Part shown: piece after piece, positions 629 through 61,079 of the stretch
Position numbering within the stretch: the stretch's first letter is position 1
How the letters are laid out: each line of letters begins with the position of its first letter
From: Komagataeibacter swingsii
Lineage (GTDB): Bacteria > Pseudomonadota > Alphaproteobacteria > Acetobacterales > Acetobacteraceae
Direction: 5' to 3'
DNA: 64,000 nucleotides
NCBI RefSeq assembly: GCF_003207895.1
Contig: NZ_NKUB01000006.1
Location: 62,001-126,000 of the forward strand
The notes under the pieces: model-generated
Seen by the model: the letters and a program-made list of their open reading frames with translations, nothing else
Database searches by the model: none
Told to the model about the DNA's origin: nothing
Made by a program: the position numbers and the translations under genes

Positions 629-1765
629 ATGAACACCCGACGCGACAGTTTTACCTACCTTGACGCCAACGCGTCCGAACCGCTCCGGGCCGAGGCGCTG
701 GCGGCCATGGTTTCGGCGGCTGGCGTGGTGGGCAATCCGTCATCCGTCCACCGCGCGGGACGCGCCGCGCGCGCCGTGCTGGAAACCGCGCGGGAGGATC
801 TGGCCACCCTGTTTGGCGTGTCGGCTGAAAACTGTGTCCTGACATCGGGCGGGACGGAGGCGAACGTGCTGGCCATTACCGGGCAGGCACGGGGCCGGCG
901 CGTGCTGGCGGGGGCTACCGAACACGATGCCGTGCGTGGTGCGGCACAGGGGCAGGTGGTGCCTGTCCGCCCCGATGGCGTGCTGGACCATGGGGCGCTG
1001 GAACGCATGCTGGCGGCCGGTGGGGGCACGCCCGCGCTGGTCTGTGTCATGCTGGCCAATAACGAAACCGGCGTCATCAACCCTGTGCGGGACATCGTGG
1101 CGCTGTGCCATGCCCATGGCGCGCTGGTGCATGTGGACGCGGTGCAGGCGGCGGGCCGCATTCCCTTCACCATAGGGGAACTGGGCGCGGACAGCGTTGC
1201 GATCTCGGGCCATAAATTCGGCGGCCCGAAGGGGGCGGGCGCATTGCTGCTGGCGGGCGCGCGCTTCCATGCCATCACCCCGCTTCTGGCCGGGGGCGGG
1301 CAGGAACAGGGACGGCGCGGCGGAACCCCGGCGCTGCCAGCCATCGCGGGCATGGCCGCGGCCGCCACGGTGGCGGTGGCAGGCATGGCGCAGCAGGCCG
1401 ACAGGCTTGGCGCATGGCGTGACCGGATCGAGGCGGCGGCGGTGGCCGCCGGCGCGCGGGTGTGCGGTGGCACGGCCCCGCGTCTGGCGAATACGACCAG
1501 CCTCGTGCTGCCCGGGCGGCGGGCGCAGACGCAATTGATCGCGCTGGACATGGCGGGATACTGCGTCTCGGCCGGGTCGGCATGTTCATCGGGCAAGGTC
1601 ACGCGCTCGCACGTGCTGGACGCCATGGGGTTCGGGGATGACGCGGGCTGCGCCATCCGCGTGTCCCTGCCATGGTCGGTGACGCAGGCGCAGGTGGATG
1701 GCTTCATTGCGGCCTATACCGCCATGGCCGGGCGGTTGCCCGCATTGCAGGCGGGGGCGGCATGA
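629..1765 (+). CDS. Cysteine desulfurase (NifS/IscS family), first of a tandem pair
   Basis: A 378-residue class V, PLP-dependent aminotransferase-fold enzyme. The family removes sulfur from L-cysteine as an enzyme-bound persulfide for Fe-S clusters or thio-modified tRNA. The PLP lysine is K196 in SGHKFGGPKG, the HVDAVQAAG stretch precedes it, and the persulfide cysteine is C319 in SAGSACSSGK, so both key residues are present. Length fits the family. The stop overlaps the start of the next desulfurase (ATGA), and a ferredoxin and mnmA follow. It is clearly divergent from its neighbour, so the pair is not a recent duplication. No iscU, iscA or suf gene is next to it, which favours a role in tRNA thiolation or a general sulfur supply. 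I cannot assign IscS versus NifS by eye. Confidence 0.9.
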   Translation: MNTRRDSFTYLDANASEPLRAEALAAMVSAAGVVGNPSSVHRAGRAARAVLETAREDLATLFGVSAENCVLTSGGTEANVLAITGQARGRRVLAGATEHDAVRGAAQGQVVPVRPDGVLDHGALERMLAAGGGTPALVCVMLANNETGVINPVRDIVALCHAHGALVHVDAVQAAGRIPFTIGELGADSVAISGHKFGGPKGAGALLLAGARFHAITPLLAGGGQEQGRRGGTPALPAIAGMAAAATVAVAGMAQQADRLGAWRDRIEAAAVAAGARVCGGTAPRLANTTSLVLPGRRAQTQLIALDMAGYCVSAGSACSSGKVTRSHVLDAMGFGDDAGCAIRVSLPWSVTQAQVDGFIAAYTAMAGRLPALQAGAA

Positions 1766-2949
1766 ACGCGCTTTCCGACCTGATCTACCTTGACTATCAG
1801 GCCACCACGCCGTGCGATCCGCGCGTGGTGGCGGAGATGATGCCATGGTTTACCGAAAGCTTCGCCAATCCCCACAGCCTTGACCACGCGGCGGGGCGTG
1901 CAGCCCATGACGCGGTGGAGCAGGCCCGTGCCGAAGTGGCCGCGATACTGGGGGCGGAGGCGCGCGAAATCGTGCTGACATCCGGCGCGACGGAGGCCAA
2001 CAACATCGCCATCAAGGGCGCGGTGCGCCACCTGCTGGGGCGCGGGGACGCGCGCAGGCGTGTCATCACGATTGCGACCGAGCATAAATGCGTGCTGGAA
2101 TCGGTGCGTGACCTTGCGCGCGAAGGCTGCGAGCCGGTGATCCTGCCGGTCCGGCCCGATGGCACGCTGGACCCTGCCGTTCTGGCCGAGGCACTGTCCG
2201 TGCCGACCCTGCTGGTCAGCATCATGGCCGCCAATAACGAAACCGGGGTGGTGCAGGACATCGCGGCCCTTGCGCCGATTGTCCGTAAAGCGGGCGCGCT
2301 GCTGCACAGCGACCTGGCGCAGGCGGTGGGCAAGGTGGATGTGGACGTGCGGGCGTGGGATCTCGACCTTGCATCCGTGTCCGGGCACAAGCTGTACGGG
2401 CCGAAGGGGGTGGGGGCGCTGTTCGTGCGCCGCAGGCCGCGCGTGCGGCTGACCCCGCTGTTTTCCGGCGGCGGGCAGGAACGCGGCCTGCGCTCGGGCA
2501 CGCTGCCCGCGCCACTGGTGATCGGATTCGGGGCGGCATGCCGCATCGCGCGCGCCGAAGGGCGGGCCGAGCGCGCGCGGGTCGCGGCGCTGCGGGACCG
2601 GCTGCTGGCGGCGTTAAGGGCGGGATGCGATGGCGTGCATGTCCATGGCGCCATGGCGGAAGGGGGGCGGCTGGCGGGCAACCTCAACCTGCGCTTTGAC
2701 GGCGTGCGCGCGCTGGACCTGATGGCGGCCGCGCCACGGCTGTGCCTGTCCACCGGATCGGCCTGTTCCTCGGCCGAGGTGACGCCATCCTACGTGCTGA
2801 CGGCCATGGGGCTGGACGGGGATCAGGCCGCCGGAGGCTTGCGTCTGGCCGTCGGACGCTATACCTCAGCCGCCGATGTGGATCGCGCGGCGGCGATCCT
2901 GTGCCAGGCTGTGGCACGCTGCCGCGCGGAGGGCAGTTCTTCGCCATGA
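1762..2949 (+). CDS. Cysteine desulfurase (IscS-like), second of a tandem pair
   Basis: A 395-residue PLP enzyme. The start ATG at 1762 overlaps the preceding stop as ATGA, which indicates translational coupling; a longer frame reaching back to 1672 only reads through the neighbour. It begins with [14 protein letters not shown], typical of IscS-like proteins. The PLP lysine is K210 in [10 protein letters not shown] and the persulfide cysteine is C335 in [11 protein letters not shown]. The LYGPKG and [13 protein letters not shown] motifs are closer to classical IscS than those of the first copy. Together with the ferredoxin and mnmA downstream it suggests an IscS-to-MnmA sulfur relay, which is an inference from context. 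Confidence 0.9.
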
Positions 2950-2983
2950 TAACGGGCGAATGGTAACAGGCAGGATGACAAAG

Positions 2984-3298
2984 ATGGCGCATATAACATT
3001 CATCGAGCGTGACGGCACCCGCCGCGAGGTCGCGGCCCCGCTGGGTCTGTCGGTTCTGGAAATCGCCCACAAGAACGGGATCGACCTTGAGGGCGCATGC
3101 GAAGGCTCGCTGGCCTGCGCCACCTGCCATGTGGTGGTGGACCCCGAATGGGCGCCCAAGCTGACGCCACCGACCGAGGATGAGGAAGACATGCTCGACC
3201 TGGCCTTCGGTCTGGAAAAGACATCGCGCCTGGGCTGCCAGATCGTGATGACCGAGGCGCTTGACGGCCTTGTGGTGCGCCTGCCGCGCACGTCCTGA
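2984..3298 (+). CDS. 2Fe-2S ferredoxin, adrenodoxin type
   Basis: A 104-residue electron carrier with the pattern C39-x5-C45-x2-C48-x36-C85 ([10 protein letters not shown] ... LGCQ), which binds one [2Fe-2S] cluster. The [17 protein letters not shown] stretch is typical of Isc-type (Fdx) and adrenodoxin-like ferredoxins that supply electrons during Fe-S assembly. I chose the ATG at 2984 because AGGA lies 8 bases upstream; an in-frame ATG at 2975 has its only AGG directly against it. The frame remains open further upstream into the desulfurase gene, but that part is not ferredoxin-like. It lies 34 bases after the desulfurase and probably belongs to the same transcript. Confidence 0.93.
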
Positions 3299-57806: not shown

Positions 57807-58667
57807 ATGTCCCGTGAGTGGATCAGCGAGGGCCTGTACGAGGGCTGGCGGCAGGAACTGCGTGTGGACCGGATGCTGGCGCGCAAAAAAAGCGCGTTCC
57901 AGGATATCGCCGTGTTCGAGAACGTCGACCTTGGCCGCGTGCTGATGCTTGATGGCGTGGTCCAGATCACGGAACGCGATGAATTCGTCTATCAGGAAAT
58001 GCTGACCCATGTGCCGCTGCTGGAACATGGCGATGCGAAGCGCGTGCTGATCATTGGCGCGGGTGATGGCGGCGTGCTGCGCCGCGTGCTGGAACACGGC
58101 ACCGTGGAAAAGGCCGTGATGGTCGAGATCGACGGTGACGTGATCGCGCTGTCCAGGGAATTCCTGCCCTCCATCGCCGGGAATGCCTGGAACGACCCGC
58201 GCGCCGAGGTGATCGTGGGTGACGGGATCGAGTATGTCACCAACGCGGCTGACGGGTCGTTTGACGTGATCATCGTGGACAGCACCGACCCGATCGGGGT
58301 TGGCGAAGTGCTGTTTACCGATTCGTTCTACAAGCACTGCGCCCGTATCCTGACGGCCAACGGCATTATCGTGAACCAGTGCGGCGTGCCGTTCATGCAG
58401 GCGGATGAACTGCGTGACACCAGCGCGCGGCGGGCGCAGTTCTTCGACCACGTATCAGCCTATGTCGCGGCGGTGCCGACCTATGTCGGTGGGTTCATGA
58501 CGCTGGGCGTCGCGGCCAAGGGCCGTGTGCCGGGCCAGACGCCGGCCGATGTGATCCGCGCGCGCGCGCAGAAGGCAGGCATTGCGGATACCCGGTACTG
58601 GACGCCGGAAATGCACGTCGCATCCTTCACCCTGCCGCCCTATATCGCGCGGAACCTGCCGCGCTGA
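57807..58667 (+). CDS. speE: Spermidine synthase SpeE
   Basis: A 286-residue aminopropyltransferase using decarboxylated SAM and putrescine. The N-terminal beta-strand domain is followed by the Rossmann domain with VLIIGAGDGGVLR (around 80-92), the proton-acceptor aspartate in DSTDPIGVGEVLF, and VEIDGDVIALSREF for dcSAM. AAVPTYVGGFMTLG is typical of the substrate pocket. It is preceded by GGGGG and followed by a strong terminator. Confidence 0.96.
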   Translation: MSREWISEGLYEGWRQELRVDRMLARKKSAFQDIAVFENVDLGRVLMLDGVVQITERDEFVYQEMLTHVPLLEHGDAKRVLIIGAGDGGVLRRVLEHGTVEKAVMVEIDGDVIALSREFLPSIAGNAWNDPRAEVIVGDGIEYVTNAADGSFDVIIVDSTDPIGVGEVLFTDSFYKHCARILTANGIIVNQCGVPFMQADELRDTSARRAQFFDHVSAYVAAVPTYVGGFMTLGVAAKGRVPGQTPADVIRARAQKAGIADTRYWTPEMHVASFTLPPYIARNLPR

Positions 58668-58746: not shown

Positions 58747-59058
58747 TCAGGCTTTGGGCGCAATGCGGGCGGTCTTGCGCAGGCTGACCAGCTCCGCGCC
58801 CAGTTCCTTCACGGCCACTTCAAAGACCTTGAAGTGGGGGGTGGCGAGGTGGGTCTCGAATGCGGCTTCATCATCATAGACTTCCACCAGGATGACGGTC
58901 TGCGGGTCGTCCATCGGGCTGACCGCTTCAAATCGCTGGCAGCCGTCTTCATCGGCTACGGAATGCGCGCTGTCATAGGCGCACAGTTCGAGGAAGTGCT
59001 CACGATGTTCGGCAGGGATGCGGAATTCGGCCACGATGGTCAGCGGGCTTGTGGTCAT
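58747..59058 (-). CDS. ABM-domain (YgiN-like) monooxygenase-fold protein
   Basis: A 103-residue dimeric ferredoxin-like-fold protein. It begins TIVAEFRIPAEHREHFLELCAYDSAHSVADEDGCQRFEA, the antibiotic-biosynthesis-monooxygenase (ABM) pattern, and continues LVEVYDDEAAFETHLATPHF with the conserved His. Such small proteins act as quinol monooxygenases or dehydrogenase companions, and the substrate is unknown here. It is a single gene, convergent with speE and divergent from the gcv locus. Confidence 0.82.
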   Translation of the reverse strand: MTTSPLTIVAEFRIPAEHREHFLELCAYDSAHSVADEDGCQRFEAVSPMDDPQTVILVEVYDDEAAFETHLATPHFKVFEVAVKELGAELVSLRKTARIAPKA

Positions 59059-59150
59059 GCGGGGATATCCTTTCTACATTGCGTATCCAGAACGTAATGC
59101 CTGAATGCGGTGGCGCCACGGCGTCCTGAAGCCGCGATGGTTTTCATGGA

Positions 59151-59181
59151 TTGACTTGGCGCATCCGGTCATGTCAAGTCA
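59151..59181 (+). promoter_or_regulatory. Inverted repeat and possible -35 box before the glycine riboswitch
   Basis: TGACTTG (59152-59158) and CAAGTCA (59175-59181) are a perfect inverted repeat just ahead of the riboswitch. TTGACT (59151-59156) could be a -35 box, but the -10 position (TCAAGT, 17-base spacer) is weak. An operator for a gcv regulator, or a promoter, is possible; neither is shown. Confidence 0.35.
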
Positions 59182-59182
59182 G

Positions 59183-59352
59183 TCTGGTCGACACGGGAGA
59201 GACCGGCTTCGCGCCGGCGCCGAAGGAGCAACCGCCCCGGAAACTCTCAGGCCAAAGGACCGGTCGACCAGGAATTCTGGAAAGAGGTATCCCTGACCCG
59301 GATACCCGCCGACGGGATAACGATCTCAGGCACATGCGACAGAAGGGGCACG
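59183..59352 (+). ncRNA. Tandem glycine riboswitch
   Basis: Two glycine aptamers in a row. The first has CGGGAGAGACCGG, CGCCGAAGGAGCAA and AAACTCTCAGGCCAAAGGAC. The second has TCTGGAAAGAGG, CCGCCGACGGGATAA, ATCTCAGGCAC and CGACAGAAGGGG. This is the conserved GcvB-type (gcvT) element; in most bacteria glycine binding turns on the glycine cleavage genes. It lies 180 bases upstream of gcvT, with a 49-codon ORF in between. The expression platform is not a clear terminator; a GAATCC/GGATTC hairpin lies at 59356-59371. Confidence 0.95.
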
Positions 59353-59355
59353 TTT

Positions 59356-59371
59356 GAATCCATCCGGATTC
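59356..59371 (+). promoter_or_regulatory. Hairpin between the riboswitch and the small ORF
   Basis: GAATCC (59356-59361), a 4-base loop, and GGATTC (59366-59371) form a perfect 6-bp stem. It ends 3 bases before the AGGAG of the small ORF (59375), so it may be part of the expression platform acting on translation. No T-run follows. Confidence 0.4.
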
Positions 59372-59385
59372 GACAGGAGTGCCGC

Positions 59386-59535
59386 ATGTCCACGCCGTTG
59401 CCTGCCCGTGTTTTCCGCCTGTCCCCGTTTCCCATTCCCCGTTCCGCTGGCGCGTATCGTGCCACGTCGCCCGCATGCCGTGCATGTGGGGCTGCCTGCG
59501 CGCATGCGGACCCGCACAAGGCCCAGCCCGCATGA
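59386..59535 (+). CDS. Putative 49-aa upstream ORF of gcvT
   Basis: ATG 59386 has a perfect AGGAG 6 bases upstream (59375-59379), the best ribosome site in this part of the window. The frame runs 49 codons to TGA 59533-59535, which overlaps the gcvT ATG (ATGA at 59532-59535). The peptide begins MSTPLPARVFRLSPFPIPRS, has three close cysteines plus one more (CRACGAAC) and ends DPHKAQPA. gcvT itself has only a weak ribosome binding site, so the small ORF may be translated first and hand ribosomes to gcvT. I know no homologue; chance cannot be excluded. Confidence 0.55.
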   Translation: MSTPLPARVFRLSPFPIPRSAGAYRATSPACRACGAACAHADPHKAQPA

Positions 59536-60665
59536 ACCAGCCCCTGCTACGCACCCCCCTTTACGATCTTCACCTTGAACTCGGCGCGCGGATGGTGCCG
59601 TTCGCGGGCTATGACATGCCGGTGCAGTATCCCGCAGGCGTCATGGCCGAACACCTGCATACCCGCACAAAGGCGGGGCTGTTCGATGTCTCGCATATGG
59701 GGCAGGTCCGCATCCGCCCGAAATCCGGCAAGATCGTGGATGCCGCCCATGCGCTGGAGGCCCTGGTGCCCGCCGATATCGTCAGCCTGAAACCCGGTCG
59801 CCAGCGTTACGCCGTGTTCACCACGGCCGATGGCGGCATAAGCGATGACCTGATGGTCACCAACATGGGCGACTGGCTGCTGCTGGTGGTCAATGCCGCG
59901 TGCAAGGATGCCGATTTCGCCCATGTGCATGATGCGCTGCATGCCACCTGCGACGTGGACATGCTGGCCGATCGCGCCCTGATCGCGGTGCAGGGACCAG
60001 CGGCGGAGGCGGCCCTCGCGGCCCTCAACCCCGCAGCCACCGGAATGCGCTTCATGGATGTGGCGCAAATGGTGCTGGCGGGCGTGCCCTGCATCGTCTC
60101 GCGTTCCGGCTACACGGGTGAGGACGGGTTTGAGATTGGCATGGCGCATGACGGGGCGCTTGCCGTGGCCCGCGCCCTGCTGGCCCAGCCCGATGTGGCG
60201 CCCGTGGGCCTTGGCGCGCGGGACAGCCTGCGGCTGGAAGCGGGGCTGTGCCTGTATGGTTCCGATATCGACCTGACCACGACCCCGGTCGAGGCCGCCC
60301 TTGAATGGTCCATCCAGAAAAGCCGCAGGCCCGGTGGCGCGCGGGCCGGTGGCTACCCGGGGGCGCAGGTCGTGGCCGACCAGCTGGCCGATGGCACGAC
60401 GCGCCGCCGCGTGGGCCTGCGTGCGCAGGGGCGGGCACCGGTGCGTGGCGGGGCCGAACTGTTTGCCGATGAAGCGGGCACGCAGCCCGCGGGCCGCGTG
60501 ACATCGGGCGCGTTTGGCCCCAGCGTGGGTGGTCCCGTCGCCATGGGCTACGTGGCGGCCGACCATGCCGGCATCGGCACGCCGCTGTTCGCCAGCGTGC
60601 GTGGCCGCCTGCTGCCGGTGGCGGTGACGGCGCTGCCCTTTGTGGCGGCGACGTTCAAGCGCTAG
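59532..60665 (+). CDS. gcvT: Glycine cleavage system T protein (aminomethyltransferase)
   Basis: A 377-residue tetrahydrofolate-dependent aminomethyltransferase. It begins LRTPLYDLHLELGARMVPFAGYDMPVQYP; family motifs are GLFDVSHMGQ, SRSGYTGEDGFEI, LGARDSLRLEAGLCLYG and the C-terminal VALPFV-like ending. ATG 59532 lies in the ATGA overlap with the 49-codon ORF; the weak purine run upstream suggests coupling. It transfers the methylene unit from the lipoyl-bound intermediate on GcvH. First of the gcvTHP set. Confidence 0.96.
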   Translation: MNQPLLRTPLYDLHLELGARMVPFAGYDMPVQYPAGVMAEHLHTRTKAGLFDVSHMGQVRIRPKSGKIVDAAHALEALVPADIVSLKPGRQRYAVFTTADGGISDDLMVTNMGDWLLLVVNAACKDADFAHVHDALHATCDVDMLADRALIAVQGPAAEAALAALNPAATGMRFMDVAQMVLAGVPCIVSRSGYTGEDGFEIGMAHDGALAVARALLAQPDVAPVGLGARDSLRLEAGLCLYGSDIDLTTTPVEAALEWSIQKSRRPGGARAGGYPGAQVVADQLADGTTRRRVGLRAQGRAPVRGGAELFADEAGTQPAGRVTSGAFGPSVGGPVAMGYVAADHAGIGTPLFASVRGRLLPVAVTALPFVAATFKR

Positions 60666-60713
60666 GTTTTCCCCTGTTTTTTCAAACATATTTCAGATCA
60701 ATGGAGCATGGAC

Positions 60714-61079
60714 ATGACCGTTTATTACACCAGGGAACATGAATGGCTGCGCGTCGAGGGCGATGTTGCGGTTGTCGGCATTACCGCCCATGCGGCGAAT
60801 GAACTGGGCGAACTGGTGTTTGCCGAAGCCCGCGACCCCGGCACGACGGTGGAGCAGGGCGACAGCGTGGCCGTGGTGGAATCGGTCAAGGCCGCGTCCG
60901 ACATCTACGCGCCGGTCACGGGTGACGTGCTGGCGTTCAACGATGCGCTGACCGATGACGCCGCCCTGGTCAACCGCGACCCCGAAGGGGAGGGCTGGAT
61001 CGTGCGCATGACCATCGCGGATGCATCCCAGCTTGAGGGCCTGATGGACAGGGCCACCTATACCGCGCTGGTTGGCTGA
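60714..61079 (+). CDS. gcvH: Glycine cleavage system H protein
   Basis: A 121-residue lipoyl carrier. The lipoylated lysine is K59 in VVESVKAASDIYAP. I chose ATG 60714 because GGAG is 7 bases upstream; an in-frame ATG at 60708 has GGAG only 1 base away. It begins MTVYYTREHEWL, as in homologues. It shuttles the aminomethyl group between GcvP and GcvT. It is 42 bases after gcvT if the ATG at 60708 is used, 48 if this one is used. Confidence 0.96.
   Translation: MTVYYTREHEWLRVEGDVAVVGITAHAANELGELVFAEARDPGTTVEQGDSVAVVESVKAASDIYAPVTGDVLAFNDALTDDAALVNRDPEGEGWIVRMTIADASQLEGLMDRATYTALVG

Follow-up and report, generated by a model that had tools for sequence, protein, structure and literature searches.

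Riboswitches that act together with an upstream open reading frame (uORF) have been described in Mycobacterium tuberculosis. There, uPPE2, the uORF of the ppe2 B12 riboswitch, was shown experimentally to be a landing pad from which ribosomes reach the downstream gene mainly by termination–reinitiation at an AUGA overlap (PMC11260477). The pe20 Mbox directly controls a uORF, and premature Rho-dependent termination takes place in its leader (PMC12810186). Searches of the open-licence literature, Acetobacteraceae included, brought up no glycine riboswitch described with a uORF, nor do passages of PMC11109978 and PMC6429828 mention one. An earlier, sequence-only reading of the DNA studied here had likewise known of no such ORF on this riboswitch; the statement stands for the glycine class, but an equivalent on a B12 riboswitch had already been published (PMC11260477).

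The window, which is the whole 64,000-nucleotide stretch of Komagataeibacter swingsii DNA that was analysed, contains a tandem glycine riboswitch (59184–59352) with a small frame and then gcvT on its 3′ side. Glycine riboswitches on gcv operons usually activate. Both aptamers exceed the RF00504 gathering score of 32, and they are the only two hits to this family among those listed genome-wide at E ≤ 0.001. Because the second aptamer ends at 59352, the segment with the small frame begins directly behind it. The features of the locus are:

59184–59271, forward strand: glycine riboswitch aptamer 1 (RF00504; cmscan 65.1 bits, E = 3.3e-12)
59267–59352, forward strand: glycine riboswitch aptamer 2 (RF00504), a weaker match (34.8 bits)
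59356–59371, forward strand: expression-platform hairpin just 5′ of the Shine–Dalgarno site, stem 59356–59361 with 59366–59371
59375–59379, forward strand: AGGAG, Shine–Dalgarno site of the small frame, spacing of 6 bases to the ATG
59386–59535, forward strand: 49-codon open reading frame with an ATG start, the candidate relay uORF
59389–59442, forward strand: pyrimidine-rich (78%), purine-poor tract within the uORF, a possible Rho-binding site
59443–59463, forward strand: nearly invariant nucleotide block within the uORF, third codon positions included, from the Komagataeibacter comparison
59506–59510, forward strand: conserved GCGGA that could pair with TCCGC at 59443–59447, from sequence comparison
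59518–59521, forward strand: AAGG, weak gcvT Shine–Dalgarno site within the last uORF codons, read from the sequence
59532–59535, forward strand: ATGA, overlap of the gcvT start with the uORF stop, in 19/19 Komagataeibacter
59532–60665, forward strand: gcvT, aminomethyltransferase, 377 aa (Pfam GCV_T and GCV_T_C)
60708–61079, forward strand: gcvH, the next gene on the same strand (Pfam GCV_H)

The TGA stop of the uORF occupies 59533–59535 and the gcvT ATG begins at 59532. The 49-codon ATG frame, its AGGAG at 6 bases and its ATGA overlap with gcvT, all pointed out in the sequence-only reading, are present in the sequence; the small peptide, which had been credited with four cysteines, has three in translation. 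On the upstream side of the riboswitch, Pfam identifies an ABM-domain monooxygenase (58747–59058, reverse strand) and a spermidine synthase (57807–58667, forward strand).

Comparison with relatives had been set beforehand as a test of the small frame, and the frame was retained in all 19 Komagataeibacter genomes, the K. swingsii genome itself being one of them. Each has the AGGAG at 6 bases (16 genomes) or 7 bases (3) from a start codon that is ATG in 18 and GTG in 1, a frame of 46–50 codons, and an ATGA at gcvT. Wider counts were made by one rule, which was anchored on a sequence motif at the aptamer end rather than on a scored riboswitch and called for a start 24–49 bases behind the aptamer end, a Shine–Dalgarno-like run of 3 bases and an NTGA in the gcvT frame; most of the genomes compared stand one per species. 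By this rule the overlap was found in 19/19 Komagataeibacter, 14/14 Gluconacetobacter and 4/4 members of the genus g73. Acetobacter was mixed: 15 of its 48 loci carried an overlap (12 ATGA, 2 GTGA and 1 TTGA, several offering a choice of starts), 32 had neither an overlap nor a direct start, and 1 lacked the aptamer motif. A further 41 family loci, drawn from 142 matching family genomes as the best 30 of 142 by score minus the named genera plus 20 chosen by hand, comprised 2 overlaps, 24 direct gcvT starts, 7 with neither, 6 without the aptamer motif and 2 without the gcvT motif. Outside Acetobacteraceae, the overlap occurred in 0/74 loci (80 matched loci minus 6 from Acetobacteraceae), 13 of which had a direct start and 61 neither. 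The small frame is a real, recurrent feature; on sequence comparison, the recurrence of start, Shine–Dalgarno site and overlap across genera, and the frame-keeping length changes described below, exceed chance expectation.

The uORF peptides are unlike between genera and span 10–62 residues across the family, with 22–31 in Gluconacetobacter, 61–62 in g73, 14–24 in the 15 Acetobacter overlaps, and 16 and 10 in the two further family loci. The g73 frames (L086, L087, L145 and L146) have a common C-terminus, VG(T/S)YRNDEVVFA, just before gcvT. At nine Acetobacter loci (L101, L147, L150, L157, L158, L161, L163, L176 and L181), a small frame overlaps gcvT by 11 bases rather than 4; these frames start 28–33 bases behind the aptamer, without a clear Shine–Dalgarno site. 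The Komagataeibacter genome G155 (L132) has a second riboswitch-region match at 1501–1660 (query bases 36–192, 79% identity), and the frame behind it, at 1681–3099, is a putative L-serine ammonia-lyase, judged by its motifs.

Changes in uORF length preserved its reading frame. On the gcvT tree, the Komagataeibacter uORF underwent at least 6 length changes, every one a multiple of 3, whereas the adjoining upstream leader (35, 36 or 37 bases) underwent at least 8, none a multiple of 3. The six distinct uORF lengths of Gluconacetobacter require at least 5 changes, all in frame, and the two of g73 at least 1, also in frame. Across the three genera, 12/12 minimum length changes were in frame, a result with a probability of about 2e-6 at a one-in-three chance each, independence assumed. 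Codon analysis of the 19 Komagataeibacter sequences found no purifying selection on the uORF amino acids: omega of the frame was 1.16, and fixing it at 1 cost 0.39 lnL, so that 1 was not rejected, compared with an omega of 0.035 for 43 matched gcvT codons, where fixing at 1 cost 110.7 lnL. By codon position, 27/22/26 of 43 columns were variable in the uORF versus 9/2/35 in the matched gcvT codons. The other two frames over the uORF stretch also gave omega values near 1 (0.87 and 1.08), so the codon data speak neither for nor against translation of the uORF frame. That the frame is open counts for little by itself, since stops are also absent from the other two forward frames in 16 and 15 of the 19 species. 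By these comparisons, what is conserved is the frame and the overlap, not the peptide.

Since frame and overlap are conserved and the peptide is not, the small frame is most likely a relay, or landing-pad, uORF: under riboswitch control, it probably hands ribosomes to gcvT by termination–reinitiation and encodes a peptide that is functionless. The glycine riboswitch would control the entry of ribosomes at a start some 36 bases past aptamer 2, and in Komagataeibacter and its nearest relatives this controlled site would open a short uORF rather than gcvT. Having read the uORF and stopped at the TGA, ribosomes would start afresh on the gcvT AUG that overlaps it, and regulation of the uORF would in this way become regulation of gcvT. 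The peptide would have no function of its own, and selection would be confined to the start, the frame and the AUGA overlap, together with parts of the RNA. We infer uORF translation, the glycine response and re-initiation at gcvT from sequence; the sequence-only reading, in which the riboswitch acts on the small ORF and gcvT is translated by re-initiation, seems right in outline and is the reading best supported by the comparisons. Counting against the relay are the 32 of 48 Acetobacter loci that carry the aptamer motif with neither arrangement.

The strengths of the two ribosome sites suggest that dependence on the uORF could differ among genera. In Komagataeibacter, the mean Shine–Dalgarno duplex energy was −2.9 kcal/mol at gcvT versus −7.5 kcal/mol at the uORF, gcvT being the weaker in 19/19, and the longest Shine–Dalgarno match at the gcvT of the window is 3 bases. 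The poor gcvT ribosome site that had been remarked on in K. swingsii thus holds throughout its genus, whereas in Gluconacetobacter and g73 the gcvT site is a good one (mean −9.4 and −7.3 kcal/mol, respectively). Because these gcvT genes own a good site, coupling to the uORF need not be obligatory there; gcvT may depend strongly on the uORF in Komagataeibacter and only in part in Gluconacetobacter and g73. The predicted gcvT initiation region was not extra occluded (mean 11.0 versus 15.7 kcal/mol at 12 background ORF starts), so no masking structure accounts for a dependence on the uORF.

Candidate RNA structures lie on both sides of the uORF start. The hairpin at 59356–59371 was paired in 96/96 cells of 16 distinct Komagataeibacter rows, with modest covariation support (2/6 pairs changed on both sides; 14/500 shuffles as high); the count was limited to the 19 rows from Komagataeibacter, as a joint alignment with Gluconacetobacter was one base out of register. 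This hairpin sits 5′ of the AGGAG, and a search for an alternative pairing that masks the AGGAG of the uORF found none. Within the uORF, the invariant block at 59443–59463 could form a local 6-bp hairpin (59449–59454 with 59458–59463) or the 5′ side of a longer stem (59443–59455 with 59498–59510). Each alternative was paired in 99% of 209 cells and neither covaried in the Komagataeibacter rows, so the two are indistinguishable. The leader as a whole folds no better than shuffled sequences (z = −0.18; 39/100 at least as good).

The position of the controlled start is similar whether it opens a uORF or gcvT itself. The uORF start lies 35–37 bases past the end of the aptamer motif in Komagataeibacter, 36–37 in Gluconacetobacter and 37 in g73, with a looser range of 26–43 in Acetobacter. 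The distance to gcvT among the ATGA-overlap loci is 71 to 222 bases, in a survey that failed to recognise the gcvT motif at 18 loci (4 Acetobacter and 14 others) and a start at 3. At the 24 direct family loci, gcvT itself starts 34–45 bases behind the aptamer end, in the context NTGTCC in 9/24, as at many uORF starts, and mostly GTGGCC or similar in the remainder. These loci share with K. swingsii the same switch and range of aptamer-to-start distance; unlike here, gcvT takes the controlled start and there is no uORF. When mapped on a 95-row GcvT tree, the uORF label, with nine loci reassigned by hand, needed 5 changes (shuffled mean 31.9; 0/500 as low). Komagataeibacter plus g73 (23 rows) were uniform for the label, as was Gluconacetobacter (15 rows), and 7/9 direct rows grouped in a single clade. 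More remote members of the family, outside this tree, have direct starts as well, and on these sequence distributions direct control is plausibly ancestral in the family.

An extension of the relay would add a gate at the level of transcription: the pyrimidine-rich half of the uORF would bind Rho, with a GC-rich pause hairpin behind it, so that a uORF blocked by the riboswitch would let Rho stop transcription ahead of gcvT, whereas translating ribosomes would shield the site. As pyrimidine-rich a composition as that of 59389–59442 is found in 0.024% of 54-base windows and at 0/24 background ORF starts; the C/G ratio reaches 1.94 over 78 bases (top 1%), with C regularly spaced; and immediately downstream lies the conserved, nearly invariant, GC-rich block with its potential stems. 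The first 45 nt of the uORF are 73–80% pyrimidine in 19/19 Komagataeibacter and the tract is 69–82% pyrimidine in 14/14 Gluconacetobacter, compared with a mean of 59% (40–73%) after the 24 direct gcvT starts. A combination of riboswitch, uORF and Rho also has a precedent in the M. tuberculosis Mbox, although there the authors place the main termination site upstream of the uORF (PMC12810186). However, the segment was picked after inspection, 194 separate runs reach the same C/G ratio in 2 × 64 kb, the C-over-G excess ranges between the top 0.1% and 8% across the 19 Komagataeibacter species, and the tract is weak in g73 (58–60%) and in many Acetobacter. Because the segment is post hoc, its C-over-G excess is not always extreme and g73 and many Acetobacter are without the tract, we regard the Rho gate as possible but doubtful. 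The fuller scenario, in which a direct riboswitch turned relay in acetic acid bacteria, its controlled start being taken over by a uORF unconstrained in sequence and length, and the uORF doubles as a shielded Rho site in Komagataeibacter and Gluconacetobacter, is a tentative conjecture; if the double gate is true, one switch would govern the glycine-cleavage operon at both levels, transcription and translation.

The remaining explanations dispense with the relay. An untranslated frame, open by chance in a GC- and pyrimidine-rich leader RNA with gcvT initiated directly, would fit the mostly open alternative frames (stops in 3 and 4 of 19) and the lack of peptide selection, but it sits poorly with the absence of the overlap from all 74 outside loci, with in-frame uORF changes next to an adjoining leader that changes out of frame, and with a strong Shine–Dalgarno site at the uORF against a weak one at gcvT in Komagataeibacter; we consider it unlikely. 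A small functional protein, metal-binding through CxxCxxxC for example and co-regulated with glycine cleavage, would also explain the in-frame length changes and two conserved-looking stretches in Komagataeibacter, SAGA(Y/F)RA and HKAQPA. Third codon positions of the 7-codon SAGAYRA block are as conserved as the others, however, which indicates that the constraint there acts on RNA; related genera have unlike peptides, and a Pfam search with the uORF peptide gave no match. The cysteine group, which had earlier been read as pointing to a functional peptide, is present as CxxCxxxC in just 13/19 Komagataeibacter peptides and omega is not below 1, results on which function through this group was rejected and which leave a functional protein very improbable. 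The gcvT frame is open from a GTG at 59379 in the window, which would allow an N-terminal extension of gcvT in its own frame, but the GTG is found in 6/19 species only (GTC in the rest) and 4/19 have gcvT-frame stops inside the stretch; this candidate was rejected as having hardly any likelihood. A small frame ahead of an amino-acid gene also recalls a classical attenuator leader peptide that senses glycine codons. Its 46–50 codons include only 1–3 for glycine, and 59060–59700 holds no terminator-like site, so a glycine-codon attenuator with an intrinsic terminator was discarded and attenuation of this kind is scarcely credible.

If the relay reading is true, landing-pad uORFs, of which the descriptions we found concern M. 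tuberculosis switches with other ligands, would extend to the glycine riboswitch, and riboswitch-controlled landing-pad uORFs would also occur in Alphaproteobacteria. The family would then offer a natural series, in which a similar controlled site serves either gcvT directly or a uORF of 10 to 62 residues, and selection on the frame could be told apart from selection on the peptide. Two cautions would follow: a gcvT start far from its riboswitch does not imply a non-translational switch, and conservation of a small frame is no guarantee that its peptide is useful.

Set beside the M. tuberculosis systems, the locus resembles each in part. The pe20 Mbox is likewise a riboswitch with a uORF, but its uORF peptide is highly conserved with a homologue elsewhere, unlike the peptide here, its authors place the main termination site upstream of the uORF, while its place in the leader is established for that switch by PMC12810186; in K. 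swingsii a role for Rho is possible but doubtful. uPPE2 differs in ligand class, phylum and gene, and its function was proved with reporters, whereas the glycine-switch case is read from sequence; in arrangement the two are alike, each with a riboswitch, a uORF with a Shine–Dalgarno site, an AUGA overlap and, as far as Komagataeibacter is concerned, a downstream gene without a clear site (PMC11260477). Those landing-pad features recur here as a uORF with its own Shine–Dalgarno site behind the aptamer in 19/19 Komagataeibacter and as an AUGA overlap in three genera.
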